From: an uncultured Acidimicrobiales bacterium
GTDB taxonomy: Bacteria; Actinomycetota; Acidimicrobiia; Acidimicrobiales; Aldehydirespiratoraceae
Direction: 5' to 3'
NCBI GenBank assembly: GCA_951812975.1
Contig: CATOTC010000001.1
Location: 62,001 to 126,000, forward strand
Length of the DNA: 64,000 bases
The notes under the pieces were generated by a model that was not told the origin of the DNA, searched no databases, and saw only the letters and a program-made list of their open reading frames with translations. Below, piece by piece: positions 3,669 to 50,251 of this stretch; within the stretch, counting starts at the first letter, position 1, and every line of letters starts with the position of its first letter. Both the position numbers and the translations under genes were made by a program.

Positions 3669-3698
3669 CCCCTGAAGCCCGAATAGCCCCCTGAGGCC
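3662..3698 (+). repeat. Imperfect 17-18 bp tandem duplication over the glpK stop
   Basis: The unit ccgaatagcccctgaag is followed at once by cccgaatagccccctgagg. The first copy contains the TAG stop of glpK. It directly precedes the dispersed repeat that starts near 3711, so it may be part of the same variable 3' region. Confidence 0.6.
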
Positions 3699-3710
3699 GA
3701 GCGGCTTGGT

Positions 3711-3836
3711 CCCGCACACGGCAGCGACAGAACGAGGCCGTGGCCCGAGCGGCCCGCCCGCGGCCGAGCGGCCCGTGAGCGAAGCGAACAAGAGCAGGAA
3801 TGAAGCGCAGCGAACAAGAGCGGGTATGAAGCGAAG
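3711..3836 (+). repeat. Dispersed intergenic repeat, copy A
   Basis: Copy A of an element also found at 8519-8696 (inverted) and 11157-11281. The shared core reads gaggccgtggcccgagcgg, then ccgtgagcgaagcgaac and aagagcgg. This copy carries about three tandem versions of a roughly 25-bp unit ending in gaacaagagc, plus internal GGCCGAGCGGCC half-palindromes that could fold. It lies between convergent glpK and the aminotransferase gene, so a 3'-end or transcription-boundary role is possible. No ORF in it looks real. Confidence 0.8.
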
Positions 3837-3841
3837 CGGTG

Positions 3842-5020
3842 CTAGGCGAGTTCGGTCAAAGCAGAGCGCATTTGACGTATTGCCTGGTTGATTCGCTGTT
3901 CGTTCTCGATCAGGGCAAATCTCACATTGCCCTCCCCACCGGGACCGAATCCGACGCCCGGCGAAACCGCGACGTTGGCCTCGGTGACGAGCATCGACGC
4001 GAACTCCACCGAACCCATGTGGCGGTACGGCTCCGGAATCGGCGCCCAGGTGAACATGGTCCCTTTCGGTGGCTCAACCTCCCAGCCGATACGGGCGAGC
4101 CCGTCACAGAGAGAGTTGCGTCGACTCTCGTAGATCTCACGGGCTTCGCTGGGATAGTCCGCGGCTTCGTTCATGGTCACGGTCGCGGCGATCTGCACCG
4201 GCTGGAACGTGCCGTAGTCGAGGTAACTCTTCAGCTTCGCCAGCGCTGCGATCGTCTGGGCGTTCCCGACCATGAACGCGACCCGCCAACCCGCCATCGA
4301 GAAGCTCTTGGTCATCGAATAGAACTCGACGGCCACCTCTTTGGCTCCTTCGGCTTGGAGGATCGAACTCGGCATGTATCCGTCGTAGCCGAGATCGGCA
4401 TAGGCGAAGTCGTGCACGACGACGACATCGCGCTGACGCGCGAAGTCCACCACCTGTTGCATGAACTCAAGGTCGACGCAAGCCGTTGTCGGGTTGTGCG
4501 GGAACGACAGCACTATGGCCCGCGGACGGGGCCAGGAGTACTCGAAGCGGGTCCTCAAGGTGTCGAAGAAGGCTCCCTGGTCGCTGGTCAGGGGCATCTC
4601 TCGAACGTTGGCACCCGCGAACAGGGGTGCGAACAGGTGGATCGGATAGGACGGCGAGGGCACGAGCACTGAGTCTCCCGGCTCCAACAGCACCCACATC
4701 AGATGGCTGAATCCCTCCTTGGCGCCGATCGTGTTGATGATCTCGGTCTCCGGGTCGAGTTCGACTCCGAAACGCCGCTGATAGAGGCCGGCTACCGCTT
4801 CTCGGAGCTTCGGGATCCCCCGACTCGACGAGTACCGATGGTTGCGGGGGTTCTGGGCCGCCTCGATCAGCTTGTTGACCGCGGTGGGAGGGGACGGCAG
4901 GTCGGGGTTGCCGAATCCGAGGTCGATCACATCCTCACCCGCGCGACGTGCCTGGATCTTCAACGAGTCGATGATCGTGAAGACATAGGGCGGAAGCCCG
5001 TTGATCCTGCGGAACTCCAT
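3842..5020 (-). CDS. Class I/II PLP aminotransferase, AlaC-like
   Basis: 392 aa fold-type I aminotransferase. Family features are GNPDLPSP near residue 38, the substrate/PLP loop SYPIHLF, the FPHNPTT segment, the aspartate in HDFAYADLGYDGY, and the Schiff-base Lys near residue 238 in YSMTKSFSMAGWR. The wording of these motifs is closest to the AlaC/YfdZ group, which makes alanine from pyruvate and glutamate. An LL-diaminopimelate or aspartate aminotransferase role cannot be excluded. It is the last gene of a leftward group beginning at 7343 or upstream, with a 9-bp gap to the preceding small gene. Confidence 0.85.
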   Translation of the reverse strand: MEFRRINGLPPYVFTIIDSLKIQARRAGEDVIDLGFGNPDLPSPPTAVNKLIEAAQNPRNHRYSSSRGIPKLREAVAGLYQRRFGVELDPETEIINTIGAKEGFSHLMWVLLEPGDSVLVPSPSYPIHLFAPLFAGANVREMPLTSDQGAFFDTLRTRFEYSWPRPRAIVLSFPHNPTTACVDLEFMQQVVDFARQRDVVVVHDFAYADLGYDGYMPSSILQAEGAKEVAVEFYSMTKSFSMAGWRVAFMVGNAQTIAALAKLKSYLDYGTFQPVQIAATVTMNEAADYPSEAREIYESRRNSLCDGLARIGWEVEPPKGTMFTWAPIPEPYRHMGSVEFASMLVTEANVAVSPGVGFGPGGEGNVRFALIENEQRINQAIRQMRSALTELA

Positions 5021-5029
5021 AGGTGGCCG

Positions 5030-5284
5030 CTACTGATCAGCAGCGGAGGCTTCGGAGCCGCCGCTGTCGTCGGTGAATCTGAATCCTCTGCTGAACGCGT
5101 CGACAAAGGACCGTCCCTTCGCGGCTACCGCGGCCAGTGCTTCAGGATCCTCAATGACCCGCTCGGTCGCTTCGATCAGCCACTTCAGCGAGGCCAGAAC
5201 CGCTTCAGCGGCCTCCCGAACCTCATCGAATCGGCCCTCCTCGTCAGCAACAGACTCGCTACAGTCCATTGCTGGCGTGCTCAT
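5030..5284 (-). CDS. Small conserved-looking acidic protein
   Basis: 84 aa, not recognised. It is rich in Glu, Ala and Asp, with a central predicted helix (EAAEAVLASLKWLIEATERVI) and a charged tail. There is no signal peptide or metal motif. It fits neatly between the SRPBCC gene (15 bp upstream) and the aminotransferase (9 bp downstream) on the same strand, which supports a real co-transcribed gene. Function unknown. Confidence 0.6.
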   Translation of the reverse strand: MSTPAMDCSESVADEEGRFDEVREAAEAVLASLKWLIEATERVIEDPEALAAVAAKGRSFVDAFSRGFRFTDDSGGSEASAADQ

Positions 5285-5299
5285 CGGTCCACGGAGCCC

Positions 5300-8459: not shown

Positions 8460-8518
8460 CCGTCCATGGTGGCACGACAAATCAGAAATGAGACACAACA
8501 ACCGACGCGAGGGACTAA

Positions 8519-8696
8519 GACGTGCGCGGATTGAACAGCGGGGTGCGCTGACACCAGTTGTTTCCCGCTCTTGTTCGCTTCGCTCCGCCCCCGCTCTTGT
8601 TCGCTTCGCTCACCGGCCGCTCGGCCGCGGGCGGGCCGCCCGGGCCACGGCCCCGCTCGGTCGCGGTCGTGTGCGGATCAATCCGCTCGGTCTCTA
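8519..8696 (-). repeat. Dispersed intergenic repeat, copy B (inverted)
   Basis: Read on the minus strand it matches copy C across its whole length: ccgagcggat at one end, a gccgtggccc centre, gagcgaagcgaacaagagcgg, then ctggtgtcagcgc and gttcaatccgcg at the other end. It also shares the core with copy A. It fills the gap between the queG start and the stop of the Cys-rich small gene. Edges are approximate. Confidence 0.8.
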
Positions 8697-8969
8697 GACG
8701 GCGTCGGAGCGGGGGACGAACCTGCTCGACGGGACGAGCCCGGCGTCGTTGAGCAGCTCATAGGCGCGTCTCTCCTCGAAATCGAGGACCACCGGCGTGC
8801 CGGCGACATGACCGACTAGATAACTCACTACGCAATCGTCACACGCTTCTGTGTGCTGCATGACGCACATGTCGCAGTCGATCATCAACCCCGCCTGCTC
8901 GCCGGCCGTTGCGCCGCAATGAGCGTCGAGCTCATCGCCAACCAATCGAAGATAAGTGTGTTCTGTCAT
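8694..8969 (-). CDS. Cys-rich small protein, possible metal-binding
   Basis: 91 aa, family not recognised. A cluster of cysteines and a histidine (DCDMCVMQHTEACDDC, residues about 31-46) forms two CxxC pairs separated by ten residues and could bind zinc or an iron-sulfur cluster. The rest is acidic without membrane segments. It is divergent from the Tat/GMC pair with a 48-bp gap. The frame is clean and its stop sits at the edge of repeat B. Confidence 0.65.
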   Translation of the reverse strand: MTEHTYLRLVGDELDAHCGATAGEQAGLMIDCDMCVMQHTEACDDCVVSYLVGHVAGTPVVLDFEERRAYELLNDAGLVPSSRFVPRSDAV

Positions 8970-9017: not shown

Positions 9018-9557
9018 ATGGTCAACGCCGATGCACCCGATACTTCGGCTCCGGTCAGCGACTCCCCCACCGCAGTCGAGGGCCCCGACTTCTCGCGGCG
9101 CCAAGTCCTGCGACTCGGCAGCGGGGGCGCGCTCGCCCTGGTCATCGGCGCCGGTGTCGGCTGGCTCGACCGATCCCGCAACCGGGGGCCCGAATCAGTC
9201 TCACCGCTGAGGGACACCACCGGCGCCACGACGACCAGCACGACAGTCGGCACCACAACCACGACGACCGAGCCGATAACTGTGAGCGGGATCGGTGAGG
9301 TGGACCCGCGGATAATCACCCTCGGTCAGCGAGTCGTCGAGGTGACCGGCGAGAACGACATCGCTGAACTGCTCGCTCAACTCCCCACGGCCGAGCGCGA
9401 CAGCGATCCGCTCGAGCGTGCCGCTGCGCGTGTCAGAGCCGATTTCGAACAGAGCGACACCATCACTGTCGACGGTTGGATCCTCGCCGCATCAGAGGCC
9501 AGGGCGGCCGCGGTGATCGCTCTGGCATGTTCAGAGTCCGTTCAATCCACATGCTGA
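9018..9557 (+). CDS. Tat-signal small partner of GMC oxidoreductase
   Basis: 179 aa. A twin-arginine signal (FSRRQVLRLGSGGALALVIGAGVGW, residues about 25-50) is followed by a Thr-rich linker and a helical domain. Its stop overlaps the start of the GMC flavoprotein (ATGCTGA), a strong sign of coupled synthesis. Many periplasmic GMC dehydrogenases, such as gluconate and fructose dehydrogenases, have a small Tat-borne subunit that carries the signal-less flavoprotein across the membrane folded. This gene looks like such an escort (inference). Similarity to the known gamma subunits is weak by eye, and no cytochrome subunit is nearby. Confidence 0.7.
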   Translation: MVNADAPDTSAPVSDSPTAVEGPDFSRRQVLRLGSGGALALVIGAGVGWLDRSRNRGPESVSPLRDTTGATTTSTTVGTTTTTTEPITVSGIGEVDPRIITLGQRVVEVTGENDIAELLAQLPTAERDSDPLERAAARVRADFEQSDTITVDGWILAASEARAAAVIALACSESVQSTC

Positions 9558-11152
9558 CCGACGCTCGCACACTTCGCTCGGGAAGCGCCCTGGAAGCAGA
9601 CCTGTGCATCATCGGCGGAGGCGCGGCAGGAATATCGATGGCAATGGAACTGCTCAATTCCGGACTGCGGGTACTGCTGATCGAGTCTGGAGGCACAGAA
9701 TCCGATGCTGCCACACAAGCACTGATGACCGGCGACAGCATCGGCGCGCCCGTGACCACGCTCGACAACCCGGTGACTCTCGACCAGACCCGTCTGCGTT
9801 ACTTCGGCGGGACCACCAACCACTGGGCCGGTTACTGCAGACCGCTGGCCCCTGTTGATTTCGAACACCGGGACCATCTTGGCGTCTCGGGATGGCCGAT
9901 CAACCACACCGACCTCGCCCCATACTGGGACCGGGCGACGCAATGGGTACGGATCACCGACGGAGACTTCTCAGTCGACACTTGGGAACGGCGTCTGGGG
10001 GTGAAAGCTCCGCCGGTGGAGACCGACGCAGTCGAACCTTTCGTGTTCCAGGTCACGTTCCCGACGAAATTCGGCGACCTGTACGGCGCAGAACTGACCG
10101 CTGCGGCCAATATCGAGGTGCTGCTCCACGCCAACGCGCTGAACCTCGCCACCGACAACGGGCGCTCGGTCACCCATCTCGATGTCGCCACCTTGAGGGG
10201 CGTCTCCTTCAAAGTCACCGCGCGGGCCTACGTGTTGGCCGCCGGGGGGATCGAGAACGCGCGGCTGTTGTTGGCTTCAGTCGACCATGACCCGGCCGGG
10301 CTCGGCAACAGCAACGACCTCGTGGGCCGCTTTTTCAGCGAACACCTGCAGATCTACGCCGGGTTCGGGGTGTTCGAGTCGGACTTCGACGCGCTCAGCG
10401 GTCTGGGCGGCGGCGAGGTGGCCATCGCCCAGGGACGCCATGCCGGACATCTCCACGGCGCCAAGTTCGCTCTCGGACTGAACGACGCACACCTGCGTTC
10501 AGCGGCGACCACCGGTCTCGAGCTGCAGTTCCTTGTCGGCTCCCTACCCGATGGAGTGCCGTTTCAGGCGCGGGGAGCCACCGTCGGCGACGTCGGTGCG
10601 CTCATGGCCCACACCGGGTCGGAGCCCCGCACAGCGGCATATCTCCAAGCCCTGGCCGAACAGGAACTGAATCCGCACAGCCGCGTCACCCTGGGGTCCA
10701 GGACCGACGCTCTGGGAATGCCGCAGATAGTGCTCGACTGGCAGTACACCGCGGCTGATCGACGGCGGGTGGTCGCCGGACTGAAGGTCATGGCCGAAGC
10801 CATAGGCGCGACCGGCTGGGGACGGGTCCAACTCGTGCCAGGTGGAGTCCACGCCGACGCCCACGACAGTGCGATCAGCGGAGAGTTCCTGACCGTCTTC
10901 AGATCGGTCCCTGAAGAGATCGACCTGAGAGGGTTTCCGGTGGGGGTGGGCTTCCACCACATGTGCACCACCCGAATGTCGGACGATCCTGCACAAGGCG
11001 TCGTCGATGCCGACTGTCGCATGCACGAAGTCGACAATCTCTGGGTCGCTGGGAGCAGCGTCTTCGCCACCGGCGGGACGGCCACGCCGACATTCACGAT
11101 CGTGGCGTTGGCAATTCGTCTCACAGACCACCTGCGAGACCTGCTCGGCTAG
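9551..11152 (+). CDS. GMC-family FAD-dependent oxidoreductase
   Basis: 533 aa from the ATG at 9551. The ORF track starts 25 codons earlier, but those residues overlap the Tat gene and lack family character. The Rossmann FAD motif CIIGGGAAGISMAMEL follows at about residue 15. Family segments include RYFGGTTNHWAGYCRPL, AAGGIENARLLL, HHMCTTRMS and the C-terminal GGTATPTFTIVALAIRL. It probably oxidises an alcohol or sugar and passes electrons to a carrier. It has no signal of its own, which fits co-export with the Tat partner. The substrate is unknown. Confidence 0.87.
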   Translation: MLTDARTLRSGSALEADLCIIGGGAAGISMAMELLNSGLRVLLIESGGTESDAATQALMTGDSIGAPVTTLDNPVTLDQTRLRYFGGTTNHWAGYCRPLAPVDFEHRDHLGVSGWPINHTDLAPYWDRATQWVRITDGDFSVDTWERRLGVKAPPVETDAVEPFVFQVTFPTKFGDLYGAELTAAANIEVLLHANALNLATDNGRSVTHLDVATLRGVSFKVTARAYVLAAGGIENARLLLASVDHDPAGLGNSNDLVGRFFSEHLQIYAGFGVFESDFDALSGLGGGEVAIAQGRHAGHLHGAKFALGLNDAHLRSAATTGLELQFLVGSLPDGVPFQARGATVGDVGALMAHTGSEPRTAAYLQALAEQELNPHSRVTLGSRTDALGMPQIVLDWQYTAADRRRVVAGLKVMAEAIGATGWGRVQLVPGGVHADAHDSAISGEFLTVFRSVPEEIDLRGFPVGVGFHHMCTTRMSDDPAQGVVDADCRMHEVDNLWVAGSSVFATGGTATPTFTIVALAIRLTDHLRDLLG

Positions 11153-11156
11153 AGGA

Positions 11157-11281
11157 CGAGCGGATTTATCCCGAACACGACCGCCGCGAACGAGGCCGTG
11201 GCCCGAGCGGCCCGTGAGCGCAGCGAACAAGAGCGGAAAAGATCTGGTGTCAGCGCAACCCCTGTTCAATCCGCGTGCGTT
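11157..11281 (+). repeat. Dispersed intergenic repeat, copy C
   Basis: It begins five bases after the GMC stop. The order is cgagcggat, cgaacacgac, gaacgaggccgtggcccg, gagcgcagcgaacaagagcgg, ctggtgtcagcgc and gttcaatccgcgtgcg. It lacks one internal cccgcggccgagcgg unit found in copies A and B. It is inverted with respect to copy B, so the two bracket the 2.5-kb GMC region. Confidence 0.8.
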
Positions 11282-11348
11282 CTCGGCTTGACGTCGGTGA
11301 CATGCTGACATCCTTGACATCAAGGGTCTGTTCGGGCAGTGTGTTGGA

Positions 11349-41807: not shown

Positions 41808-44179
41808 GGGATCACGACCTCCAAATCCGGGGCCAGTCCATTGCCGGAGACCTCCACGTATCCATCAGCGAACAGTCCGGTGCCGACCCCGACGAGGCGG
41901 ACGCTTCCGTCGGATTGGACGATCTCAACTGCGTAGCCCCCCTCCTGTAGAGCAAGCAGGGCGCTAACAGGAACACTCAGAACACCTTGCGCTATCTCAG
42001 TGGCGAAGCGAACCTGAACGGTGGCCCCCGTCCAGTTCGGGTCTACCGACTCCAACGGGGCGATGACCACATCCAGATATGACGATTCGTTACTCTGTTC
42101 GGTCGCTGAAACGATCACCGGGACGGCACCCAACTCAATCACTTCGCCGGCCACCTCAGTATCGTCGGGAAGCTCGATCGTCACAGAAGTACCCAGTGCG
42201 AGCAGATCCTGGTCGACGAGGTCGAGCCGGGCGGTGACGCGTTGGGCGGTTACCGTCTGGTCTTGGACCCCGTCGGGCCCGACGGTGCTCGACACCAGTT
42301 CCACCGCAGTCAACTCGTAGAGGACAGCGCCCTCGTTCACCGAATCGCCACGCGAGACTGCCAAGGCGCTGACCGGGGCCGGCCCTGCAATGAAGACCAC
42401 TTGTCCCAGAGGGATCTCGCCGGTCACCGTCACACCGACATCCGTCTGCCATGCCATGACCGCGTCGGCCGTGTCAGAGTCGAAGACGTCATCCACTTCG
42501 AGGTCTCCGTAGCCGAGAGTGACCAGGTTGGTTTCGAGCCATCCGATATCCGGGCCGGGTGTGGTGTCGACGGACATGGAACGCCAAGCGGCTCCGTCGC
42601 CATAGAACAGAAATGCCGTGTCGGCGCCGGCAAGCAGATCGTTGTAGTCGTCCTGAGAGGACTCCAGGGTGAGCTCCGCCGACAACAGGTTCCGACGGGC
42701 CCTCAGCAGTTCGACCGTTTCGGGGTCGGCGAGCAGATCACTGAGCCTGGTTTCTGCCGACTGCAGATTGGAACGAGCCTGTTCAACCTCGAGGGCATCC
42801 GGTCCCTGCCGCAGTTCCTGCAACTGCTCCTCAGCCGATTGCAGGCTGTTGAGCGCACTATCAATATCGGCCGCCGAGGGACCAGCCAACAACTCCGCGA
42901 GAGAATCCTCGGCCGTATCCAAACTGGCAAGCGCACTATCAATATCGGCCACCGAGGGACCAGCCAACAACTCCGCGAGAGAATCCTCGGCCGTATCCAA
43001 ACTGGCAAGCGCACTATCAATATCGGCCACCGAGGGACCAGCCAACAACTCCGCGAGAGAATCCTCGGCCGTTTCCAAGCTGGCAAGCGCCGAATCGTGG
43101 CCTGCCACATCGGAATTGTAGGTCAAGTTGTCATTGAGAAGACGCTCCGACAGATCCGCCCAATCTTCTTCGGTTGATGGCGACCCATACTTCTCGGCTT
43201 CGGCGCGAGCCTCGGCGATGTCGTCGGTGAGGGCCACCATCTGCCCCTCACTCAGAGGCAGACGGCTCAGAGCAGAACCATTGCACAGCGACGCGATCGC
43301 TCTGTCGGTCCAGTAGCAGTATTCGCTCCAGGTGATCTCCAGAGAAACGTAGGACAGGTCCCGCGCGGCCCTAGTTGAGCCAACCCGCTGTTCTGCTAGT
43401 TGGATTGCCGCGGTGGCCTCGGCTATGTCCGTCGGGTCCGGCTCAGCAGTCAGGTCGTCGTAAGCCTCCTGGGCGCGGGCGACTGCCGCTCTGGCGGCTC
43501 CCAATTCGGCTTCAGTAGGTGAATCGAGCAGATCATCGTAAGTCTCCTGCGCACGAGCAACTGCCGCTCGACCCGCGCCCAACTCCGCCTCGGTAGGCGC
43601 AGCAAGCAGATCATCGTAGGTCTCCTGCGCACGAGCAACTGCCGCTCGACCCGCGCCCAATTCAGCTTCGGTAGGCGCAGCGAGCAGATTGTCGAGCGTC
43701 AAGCGGGCCTGGGCAACAGCTGCTTCCGCAGAGGCCAGATCGGCGGGTCCAGCCCCGGATTCAAGATCGTCGAGCGCGATCTCAGCACTCGCCACCGACG
43801 CCTCGGCGGATGCAATCCTCTGTTCGGCCTGCGTCACCTGTGAATCTGTGACCATCGAGTCGATTGCGAACAGTCGGTCACCGCGTTCCAACCGGGCCCC
43901 CTCCTCGGGGACTTCCACCACGACACCACTGCTGGGAGCAACCACGACAAGGGCGTCGTCGTAGGCCAAGGTCCCCGAGATGGTGGTCGTCTCGGAAAGG
44001 TCGCGCACTTCAATAAGGTCGGTGTTCAGAGTGGATGCGGCGGGAGCGTCTGTGCTTTCGCTTTGGTCGGCAACCAGCCAGACCACGACACCTCCGGTGA
44101 CAAGTACCAGGATCAGGATCGCTGTTGAACCCAACCAACGGCGCTTGCGCCGTTTCGGTGGTGCGGACGTCTCGTTCAC
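41804..44179 (-). CDS. HlyD/MacA-type periplasmic adaptor with internal 26-residue repeats
   Basis: 791 aa, far larger than MacA (about 370). N-terminal membrane anchor (RRWLGSTAILILVLVTGGVVVWLVA), then half of the lipoyl domain (SGTLAYDDALVVVAPSSGVVVEVPEEGARLERGDRLFAID), a long helical hairpin to about residue 560, a PG-binding-like piece (IGWLETNLVTLGYGDLEVDDVFDSDTADAVMAWQ), and beta-barrel/membrane-proximal parts. Both hairpin arms contain near-identical 26-residue repeats (VARAQETYDDLLAAPTEAELG on one side, LDTAEDSLAELLAGPSVADID on the other). It starts at a GTG overlapping the previous stop by one base and is coupled to the ATPase. Confidence 0.88.
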   Translation of the reverse strand: MNETSAPPKRRKRRWLGSTAILILVLVTGGVVVWLVADQSESTDAPAASTLNTDLIEVRDLSETTTISGTLAYDDALVVVAPSSGVVVEVPEEGARLERGDRLFAIDSMVTDSQVTQAEQRIASAEASVASAEIALDDLESGAGPADLASAEAAVAQARLTLDNLLAAPTEAELGAGRAAVARAQETYDDLLAAPTEAELGAGRAAVARAQETYDDLLDSPTEAELGAARAAVARAQEAYDDLTAEPDPTDIAEATAAIQLAEQRVGSTRAARDLSYVSLEITWSEYCYWTDRAIASLCNGSALSRLPLSEGQMVALTDDIAEARAEAEKYGSPSTEEDWADLSERLLNDNLTYNSDVAGHDSALASLETAEDSLAELLAGPSVADIDSALASLDTAEDSLAELLAGPSVADIDSALASLDTAEDSLAELLAGPSAADIDSALNSLQSAEEQLQELRQGPDALEVEQARSNLQSAETRLSDLLADPETVELLRARRNLLSAELTLESSQDDYNDLLAGADTAFLFYGDGAAWRSMSVDTTPGPDIGWLETNLVTLGYGDLEVDDVFDSDTADAVMAWQTDVGVTVTGEIPLGQVVFIAGPAPVSALAVSRGDSVNEGAVLYELTAVELVSSTVGPDGVQDQTVTAQRVTARLDLVDQDLLALGTSVTIELPDDTEVAGEVIELGAVPVIVSATEQSNESSYLDVVIAPLESVDPNWTGATVQVRFATEIAQGVLSVPVSALLALQEGGYAVEIVQSDGSVRLVGVGTGLFADGYVEVSGNGLAPDLEVVIP
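42853..43089 (-). repeat. Three tandem 78-bp in-frame repeats (descending arm of adaptor)
   Basis: Copies begin near 42853, 42931 and 43009 on the plus strand (gcgcactatcaatatcgg), exactly 78 bp apart and nearly identical at the DNA level. The encoded unit is about SALASLDTAEDSLAELLAG plus PSVADID, 26 residues. Confidence 0.85.
43455..43690 (-). repeat. Three tandem 78-bp in-frame repeats (ascending arm of adaptor)
   Basis: Repeats of cgtaggtctcctgcgcacga with the same 78-bp spacing. The encoded unit is about RAAVARAQETYDDLLAAPTE plus AELGAG, 26 residues. Copy edges are approximate. Confidence 0.8.
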
Positions 44180-49111: not shown

Positions 49112-50251
49112 CTAGCGGTAGGGCGGCACGTACATGAGCCCGCCGTTGGACCAGAGGTCGTTGACGCTGCCGTCGAGGACACCCAACTGCGGGTAGCGAT
49201 TGAAGATCTCCTCGTAGTTGCCCACCTGCTCAACCACGTTCACAGCGAAGTCGCCGGGCAGATCGAGGCCGGGATCGAAATTCTCGCGACCCAGGAAGTT
49301 CAAGATGTTGGGATCGGTGCCGTCGTAGCTGCCGATGTTGCTGGAGTCGAGTCCGAACTCCCAAGCCTGAACGGTAGCCATGGTGGCCCAGTTCACAACC
49401 TGCGCCCATTCGGTGTCGCCGTCACGAACCACGGTGCCCAGAGGCTCCTTGGAGATGAGCTCGGCCATGATGTGCTGGTCCGCACCGCCCTTGCCCTCGA
49501 TCTCGAACTTGAACACGCCGAGCACGCTGCTGTCAGCAGTCATCGCCTCACACTGGCCCTCTTCGTAGGCCGGCACCAAGGTGTCGAAGCCCTCGAAGGT
49601 GACCGGGTTGAAGGGAATGCCGCGGGCGGCGAACACTGCGGTGAGGTTCAGCTCGGTGGTGGTACCGGTGCTCACGCAGATATTGGCGTCAACCAGGTCG
49701 TCCAGTGTGGTGAAGCCGGTGGAGGCCGGCACCATGACGCCCTGGCCGTCGTAGTAGGTGGTGAACAAGAAGTTGGCGCCCTCGGTACCGTCACGGGTGG
49801 CCGTCCATGTGGTGTTGCGGTTCATCACCTCGAACTGGCCTGATGCCAGGGCGGTGAAGCGCTCGGCGCTGGTGACCGGCACGATTTCCACGGCATCGGC
49901 ATCGCCGAAGATGGCGGCGGCCACTACGCGGCACATGTCGATGTCGAAGCCTTCGTACTCGCCGTTCTCGTTCAGCAGCGCGAAGCCGGGCACGTCGTCG
50001 CGGGAGCCGCACCGCACGTGGCCGCGATCCAGCACGGTCTGCAAGGTACCGCCGTCGGAGGCCATGTCATCGCCGTCGTCGGAGGCCATGTCATCGCCGT
50101 CGTCGGAGGCCATGTCGTCGCCGCCTTCGTCTACCATTTCCTCTTCAGCGTCGTCGCCAGCGTCTTCATCGTCGTCGCCACAAGCGGCGGCTATGAGGAC
50201 GATGGCTAGTAGCGCTGCAAGCAAATGCAGCAATTTACTGTTCTTGTTCAT
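49112..50251 (-). CDS. aapJ: Polar amino acid ABC substrate-binding lipoprotein, AapJ-like
   Basis: 379 aa from the ATG at 50251 (MNKNSKLLHLLAALLAIVLIAAACGDDD), which has a GGAAGGGA site about 8 nt upstream; the ORF track's earlier 36 codons are leader. Lipobox IAAAC is followed by an acidic spacer with three DDMASDDG-type units, then the AapJ domain: GHVRCGSRDDVPGFALLNENGEYEGFDIDMCRVVAAAIFGDA, RFTALASGQFEVMNRNTTWTATRD, YYDGQGVMVP. It binds amino acids outside the membrane and delivers them to AapQ-AapM. First gene of the operon. Confidence 0.92.
   Translation of the reverse strand: MNKNSKLLHLLAALLAIVLIAAACGDDDEDAGDDAEEEMVDEGGDDMASDDGDDMASDDGDDMASDGGTLQTVLDRGHVRCGSRDDVPGFALLNENGEYEGFDIDMCRVVAAAIFGDADAVEIVPVTSAERFTALASGQFEVMNRNTTWTATRDGTEGANFLFTTYYDGQGVMVPASTGFTTLDDLVDANICVSTGTTTELNLTAVFAARGIPFNPVTFEGFDTLVPAYEEGQCEAMTADSSVLGVFKFEIEGKGGADQHIMAELISKEPLGTVVRDGDTEWAQVVNWATMATVQAWEFGLDSSNIGSYDGTDPNILNFLGRENFDPGLDLPGDFAVNVVEQVGNYEEIFNRYPQLGVLDGSVNDLWSNGGLMYVPPYR

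Follow-up and report, generated by a model that had tools for sequence, protein, structure and literature searches.

The window analysed here, a contiguous 64-kb stretch from the genome of an uncultured Acidimicrobiales bacterium, carries three copies (A, B and C) of a dispersed repeat, all of them in gaps at gene ends, as a preliminary description made from the sequence had stated (Table 1). No fourth copy is found elsewhere in the window, and the nearest one outside lies 882 bp past its right edge (G000:C1:126882). The copies have a core in common, with 27 nt exactly common to copies A and C, and the arms of copies A and B are 88% complementary over 113 nt. Two details of the preliminary description required amendment: the interval given, 3711-3836, lies inside copy A but begins too late to take in the left inverted repeat (from 3693); and the tandem unit, put at 25 bp in variable number, does vary in number but is 26 bp long, at a spacing of 26-27. 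Two stop codons in the window are completed by the repeat: the TAG of a 91-aa ORF (8694-8969, minus strand) consists of the TA of CTA and the first G of copy B, and the TAG of an oxidoreductase gene (9551-11152) consists of the TA at the junction and the first G of copy C. The aminotransferase gene beside copy A (3842-5289) is absent from the same-genus genomes G005 (L371, G005:C168) and G003, where the flanking genes are syntenic. Elsewhere in the window there are in-frame tandem repeats of three copies each, of 78 bp (42828-43090 and 43451-43684) and 24 bp (50049-50144), which probably lie in coding sequence.

Table 1. Positions of the three repeat copies and their parts in the 64-kb window.
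Feature	Position	Strand	Description
Copy A	3693..3838	+	Left inverted repeat, core and about 2.5 26-bp units; right arm missing
Copy A neighbours			Glycerol-kinase-like gene (ends 3668); convergent aminotransferase gene (stop 3842-3844)
Copy A putative mini-hairpin	3775..3789	+	GTGAGC-GAA-GCGAAC; from sequence and compensatory variants
Copy A 26-bp units	3778-3803; 3804-3829	+	First; second
Copy B	8519..8694	-	Complete, 176 bp; two arms, two GGCC hairpins, two 26-bp units
Copy B right-end target duplication	8516..8518	-	TTA (element orientation), differing from CTA at one base
Copy B left-end target duplication	8695..8697	-	CTA
Copy B putative mini-hairpin	8599..8613	-	GTGAGC-GAA-GCGAAC; from sequence and compensatory variants
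Copy C	11152..11282	+	Complete; short form of 131 bp with one unit
Copy C left junction	11149..11151	+	CTA; right side without matching triplet
Copy C putative mini-hairpin	11214..11228	+	GTGAGC-GCA-GCGAAC; from sequence and compensatory variants

The preliminary description staked its repeat family on further copies in the genome, and these are abundant. With one mismatch allowed at most, the 14-mer AGCGAACAAGAGCG has 133 matches in the 3.02-Mb genome against 0 for a reversed control pattern, and BLAST searches with copy B and with the short consensus returned 67 pieces each. Copies were resolved from stretches around the matches, and five 20-kb stretches were taken as controls; this gave a lower bound of at least 65 copies, all between genes and overlapping any called gene by at most 60 bp. 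Most are 131-203 bp long, no conserved ORF was seen in them, and the 26-bp unit is not a multiple of 3. The element is ordered as a left arm (GAGGCCGAGCGGATTGATCCC), a spacer, the core (ACGAGGCCGTGGCCCGAGCGGCCCGTGAGCGNAGCGAACAAGAGCGG), a second spacer and a right arm (...TTCAATCCGCGCACGYTC). The ends form imperfect inverted repeats (GAGGCCGAGCGGATTGA... and, as reverse complement, GARCGTGCGCGGATTGA...; consensus GAGGCCGAGCGGATTGAT and, as reverse complement, GAGCGTGCGCGGATTGAA), and the left and right arm consensus sequences are identical at 13 of their first 17 positions. The short form measures about 131-135 bp, and in longer forms a GGCC-hairpin unit of 19 bp is added, together with at least one 26-bp unit (AGCGNAGCGAACAAGAGCGGGNNTGA). 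About half of the copies in this genome lack the right arm, and some are reduced to the core, without ends. Copy-by-copy pairing of the two arms gave P = 0.13 in this genome and P = 0.0003 over all genomes, a signal which can reflect subfamilies. Searches of Rfam (up to E = 1) and of plasmids gave no match to the repeat. One copy (L181, C2:156223-156959) has four 19-bp GGCC-hairpin units followed by 23 perfect 26-bp units (G000:C2:156349-156959), a large bacterial minisatellite, and at another locus (L250, G005:C9:31992-32265) two complete elements stand head to tail with one TAG triplet between them, common to both.

The flanks of the copies bear the mark of transposition, and the target duplications that the preliminary description proposed looking for were found. 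With element boundaries set at GAG...YTC, 13 of 40 copies have exact 3-bp flank pairs against 2.6 expected; in an enlarged set which includes these first 40, exact triplets flank 32 of 101 copies against 6.7 expected, the best of 5000 re-pairings reaching 16. Flank matches show no enrichment at lengths of 2 or 4 bp. The duplicated triplets are mostly TNA, with TTA, TAA, TCA, CTA and TGA among the pairs, and since C tends to precede them and G to follow them, the target resembles CTNAG. A TNA target of this length agrees with the IS5 subgroups that duplicate 3 bp. Copies A and C are without a clear 3-bp duplication. All three window sites are empty in orthologous gaps of same-genus genomes, for copy A in G001 and G004, for copy B in G001, G003, G004 and G005, and for copy C in G001, G003 and G005; the repeat was gained recently at each of them. 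For copy B the exact empty site, CCGTCTAGTCC, is preserved in G005:C168 (92% identical), where our genome reads CCGTCTA-element-TTAGTCC, flanks in which a CTA was duplicated and one base later altered. The stop codon at the empty site is made of TA from the target and a G, and the filled site gets this G back from the element.

Loci of DDE_Tnp_1 transposases in relatives were scanned for the ends of the repeat, and this led to IS5-type elements, each about 0.95 kb long, from the same order and the same genus, whose transposases match PF13340 and PF01609 and the NCBIfam model NF033580 (IS5 family). Their ends read GGAGGCCGCGCGGATTGG (also given as GGAGGCCGCGCGGATTGGTGACC) and GGAGGCTCAGCGGATTGG in G038, GGAGCGAGCGCAAATAGGTGG in G022 and, each after a TTA, GAGGCCGCGCGGATTGG in G044, GGACCCGCGCGGATAGG in G042, GAGGCCGAGCGGGTAGGTG (also given as GAGGCCGAGCGGGTAGGTGACC) in a relic or fragment in the same-genus genome G003, and GAGCGCGCGCAAATAGG..., closed by a second TTA, in a frameshifted element of the same-genus genome G001. 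The G001 element (L273/L319, G001:C27:12395-13175) has perfect 17-bp inverted ends, a TTA target duplication and its transposase in two frames. From these sequences the IS elements have two types of end, and two subfamilies of the repeat carry corresponding ends, GCGGATTG in its own genus and GCGAATAGG / GCAAATAGG in the sister genus g5; the sister-genus ends (GAGCGAGCGCAAATAGGTGAG) match the second IS type, as found in G001 and in L288 of that same sister genus. No own-genus IS was found with ends identical to those of the repeat over their whole length. Genes matching NF033580 occur in 9 of 16 relatives with the repeat and in 7 of 45 without it (Fisher P = 0.003, kinship ignored), and PF13359 transposases are absent from our genome and from near genomes. 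The preliminary description had also proposed looking for a linked transposase. The genome itself (93% complete) has no intact IS5 transposase, and keeps only a 44-codon transposase relic (C3:392153-392284) without recognizable ends, so that any present movement of the repeat in it would depend on a transposase coming from outside or encoded in the 7% that the assembly lacks.

Of the two halves of the preliminary label "REP/MITE-like", it is the MITE that stands, on the inverted-repeat ends, the 3-bp duplication, the empty sites and the matching IS5-family elements. The repeat is very probably a non-autonomous MITE of the IS5 family with a minisatellite interior, targeted to TNA and moved in trans. 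An IS5-type DDE transposase (an ORF of about 250-310 aa with PF13340 and PF01609, NF033580) would recognize the inverted ends and insert the MITE at CTNAG-like sites with duplication of 3 bp (TNA), while the 19-bp GGCC-hairpin unit and the 26-bp hairpin unit grow and shrink in number like a minisatellite. The MITE and the IS elements have their ends alone in common, whereas the latter are autonomous and carry a transposase ORF; the MITE is therefore not a plain deletion derivative.

Several points count against the MITE reading: the genome's lack of an intact IS5 transposase, the sharing of nothing but ends with the IS elements, the want of an own-genus IS with fully identical ends, the frequent loss of the right arm, the missing clear duplication at copies A and C, and the conservation of the core. 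A comparison of the own genus with g5 gives 94% identity for the 47-bp core, 64-77% for the ends and 59-77% for arms and spacers, so that the core is better conserved than the ends, an unusual situation and the reverse of the usual expectation for a MITE. The core can be drawn as a hairpin, GTGAGC-GNA-GCGAAC (15-mer GTGAGCGAAGCGAAC), with the GNA loop in 215 of 224 instances and N varying. A paired change, GTGAAC-GNA-GTGAAC, occurs in copies of this genome and in G169, from another order, and L229 holds two core units in tandem, in which a fully Watson-Crick hairpin, GGCGGC-GAA-GCCGCC, takes the place of the one with G.A pairs; because the changes are paired, they support a plus-strand hairpin. 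GCGNAGC, present in most hairpin units, is known among DNA mini-hairpins for its exceptional stability. The d(GCGNAGC) mini-hairpin, a structural motif rather than a mobile element, has been used in aptamers (PMC4686876); its formation in the repeat is putative. DNA folding with standard energies, which give tandem G.A pairs no score and for that reason miss it, does not predict it. Folding, which the preliminary description had proposed for the consensus, gave the whole element no advantage over shuffled sequences (z = -0.5 and -1.3). It is conceivable, at perhaps the strength of a minority view, that selection maintains the core as a functional module, a hairpin formed strand-specifically in single-stranded DNA or RNA and carried by different IS5-type ends in different lineages; the ends would then follow the local transposase, while the core would be kept across the class, perhaps through a host or transposition factor recognizing the hairpin.

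The position of the copies bears on whether such a core might serve the upstream gene. In our genome 17 of 52 left ends begin within 1 base of a stop codon whose gene has the same orientation, a position expected for only 5.4% of noncoding TNA sites (P = 9e-10). The bias is weak in the same-genus relatives (5 of 52), most of the pooled excess coming from our own genome; pooled with relatives, the counts at a stop codon are 25 of 127 for left ends and 7 of 62 for right ends, a difference which is not significant (P = 0.21). Enrichment in convergent gaps is not significant either (P = 0.26). The core could on this basis be a 3' untranslated RNA element, a terminator or mRNA-stability hairpin kept for its benefit to the gene before it, and the abutment of left ends on stop codons, the hairpin favoured on the element plus strand by G.A pairs present on one strand only, and the conservation of the core all agree with this; but the orientation in codirectional gaps is unbiased (20 same versus 14 opposite, P = 0.39), left and right ends do not differ significantly, a terminator-like site is present in no copy and the copies in the window are recent gains, and we regard this explanation as improbable. 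Under the IS5-family MITE reading the simplest account is that insertion of a TNA-targeting element into a stop codon would be tolerated, because the duplication, or TA with the element's first G, would restore the stop; copies would be found at gene ends because such insertions are harmless and those within genes are purged.

Spread by recombination or slippage, not transposition, of a purely structural or host-protein-binding repeat would fit the growth of the 26-bp unit to up to 23 perfect copies and the core-only copies without ends, and tandem growth inside the element is probably indeed slippage. Transposition is nevertheless needed to explain single copies that are dispersed and exactly bounded, with 3-bp duplications and a precise empty site, which makes this second alternative very unlikely. 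Slightly less credible still is a REP, BIME or REPIN, that is, a palindrome which a REP-associated tyrosine transposase of the Y1 type (RAYT) moves as single-stranded DNA. High copy number, intergenic position and a core hairpin with compensatory variants are shared with such elements, but two of their defining features fail. The cognate enzyme is missing, since a PF01797 gene was found in 0 of 6 same-genus genomes and in 5 control genomes that served as positives; and Y1 enzymes are not known to make a target duplication, whereas here there is one of 3 bp, around a unit of 130-180 bp with inverted-repeat ends rather than a palindrome of 20-40 nt as the whole unit, and one whose overall fold is unexceptional. 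Chance similarity of GC-rich gene-end sequence, for which the GC-rich, low-diversity motif might speak, is refuted by the matchless reversed control.

The preliminary description spoke of a family "for this lineage", which is correct provided that the lineage is taken as the class Acidimicrobiia. A 23-mer of the unit occurs in at least 120 stretches of the species-genome collection, those among the matches listed all being from Acidimicrobiia. The core was found in 7 of 296 sampled genomes of the class, including other families and another order, and the hairpin with its tail in 2 of 397 sampled genomes of the phylum, both of this genus; on these searches the distribution appears patchy and class-specific. 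Outside the family, G197 carries a complete element with an ATA duplication (L301). The same-genus locus L219 (G004) is identical in sequence to L089, a locus of Acidimicrobiaceae bacterium COS4_bin_1.

Among known elements the nearest is BrickBuilt of Porphyromonas gingivalis, likewise an IS5-type MITE with a minisatellite (PMC4596501). It has IS5-family-like ends starting with GAG, is always intergenic, contains an internal tandem minisatellite (23 nt, compared with 26 bp here), often misses one end and holds no transposase remnant. It differs in its 19 copies in one strain, its restriction to Porphyromonas and its target duplications, inconsistent in length where those in Acidimicrobiia are uniformly 3 bp; the section of that account consulted reports no cross-genus conserved hairpin core, and no sequence relation was noted (PMC4596501). 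ATR of Neisseria meningitidis is also a MITE attributed through its ends to an IS5-family parent, but is AT-rich, and a 26-bp hairpin minisatellite is not mentioned for it there (PMC4596501). Among autonomous elements, IS5-family members (NF033580/PF13340 and PF01609; IS427/IS1031-like; compare IS1237 and ISLxx6 of Leifsonia, the latter an actinobacterial element with a 3-nt insertion site; PMC2516522) share, in their Acidimicrobiia copies, the matching inverted ends and the 3-bp TNA duplication.

No earlier report of the repeat was found in the open-access literature searched, and this MITE family of the Acidimicrobiia, a class known largely from metagenomes, seems not to have been described before; a probable transposase family and an exact target rule can now be named for it. 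It provides a second IS5-type MITE with a minisatellite, unrelated in sequence to BrickBuilt, and it therefore becomes testable whether the combination recurs for a reason. The conservation of the core above that of the ends which the transposase would recognize is the one surprising feature, and deserves to be followed up.
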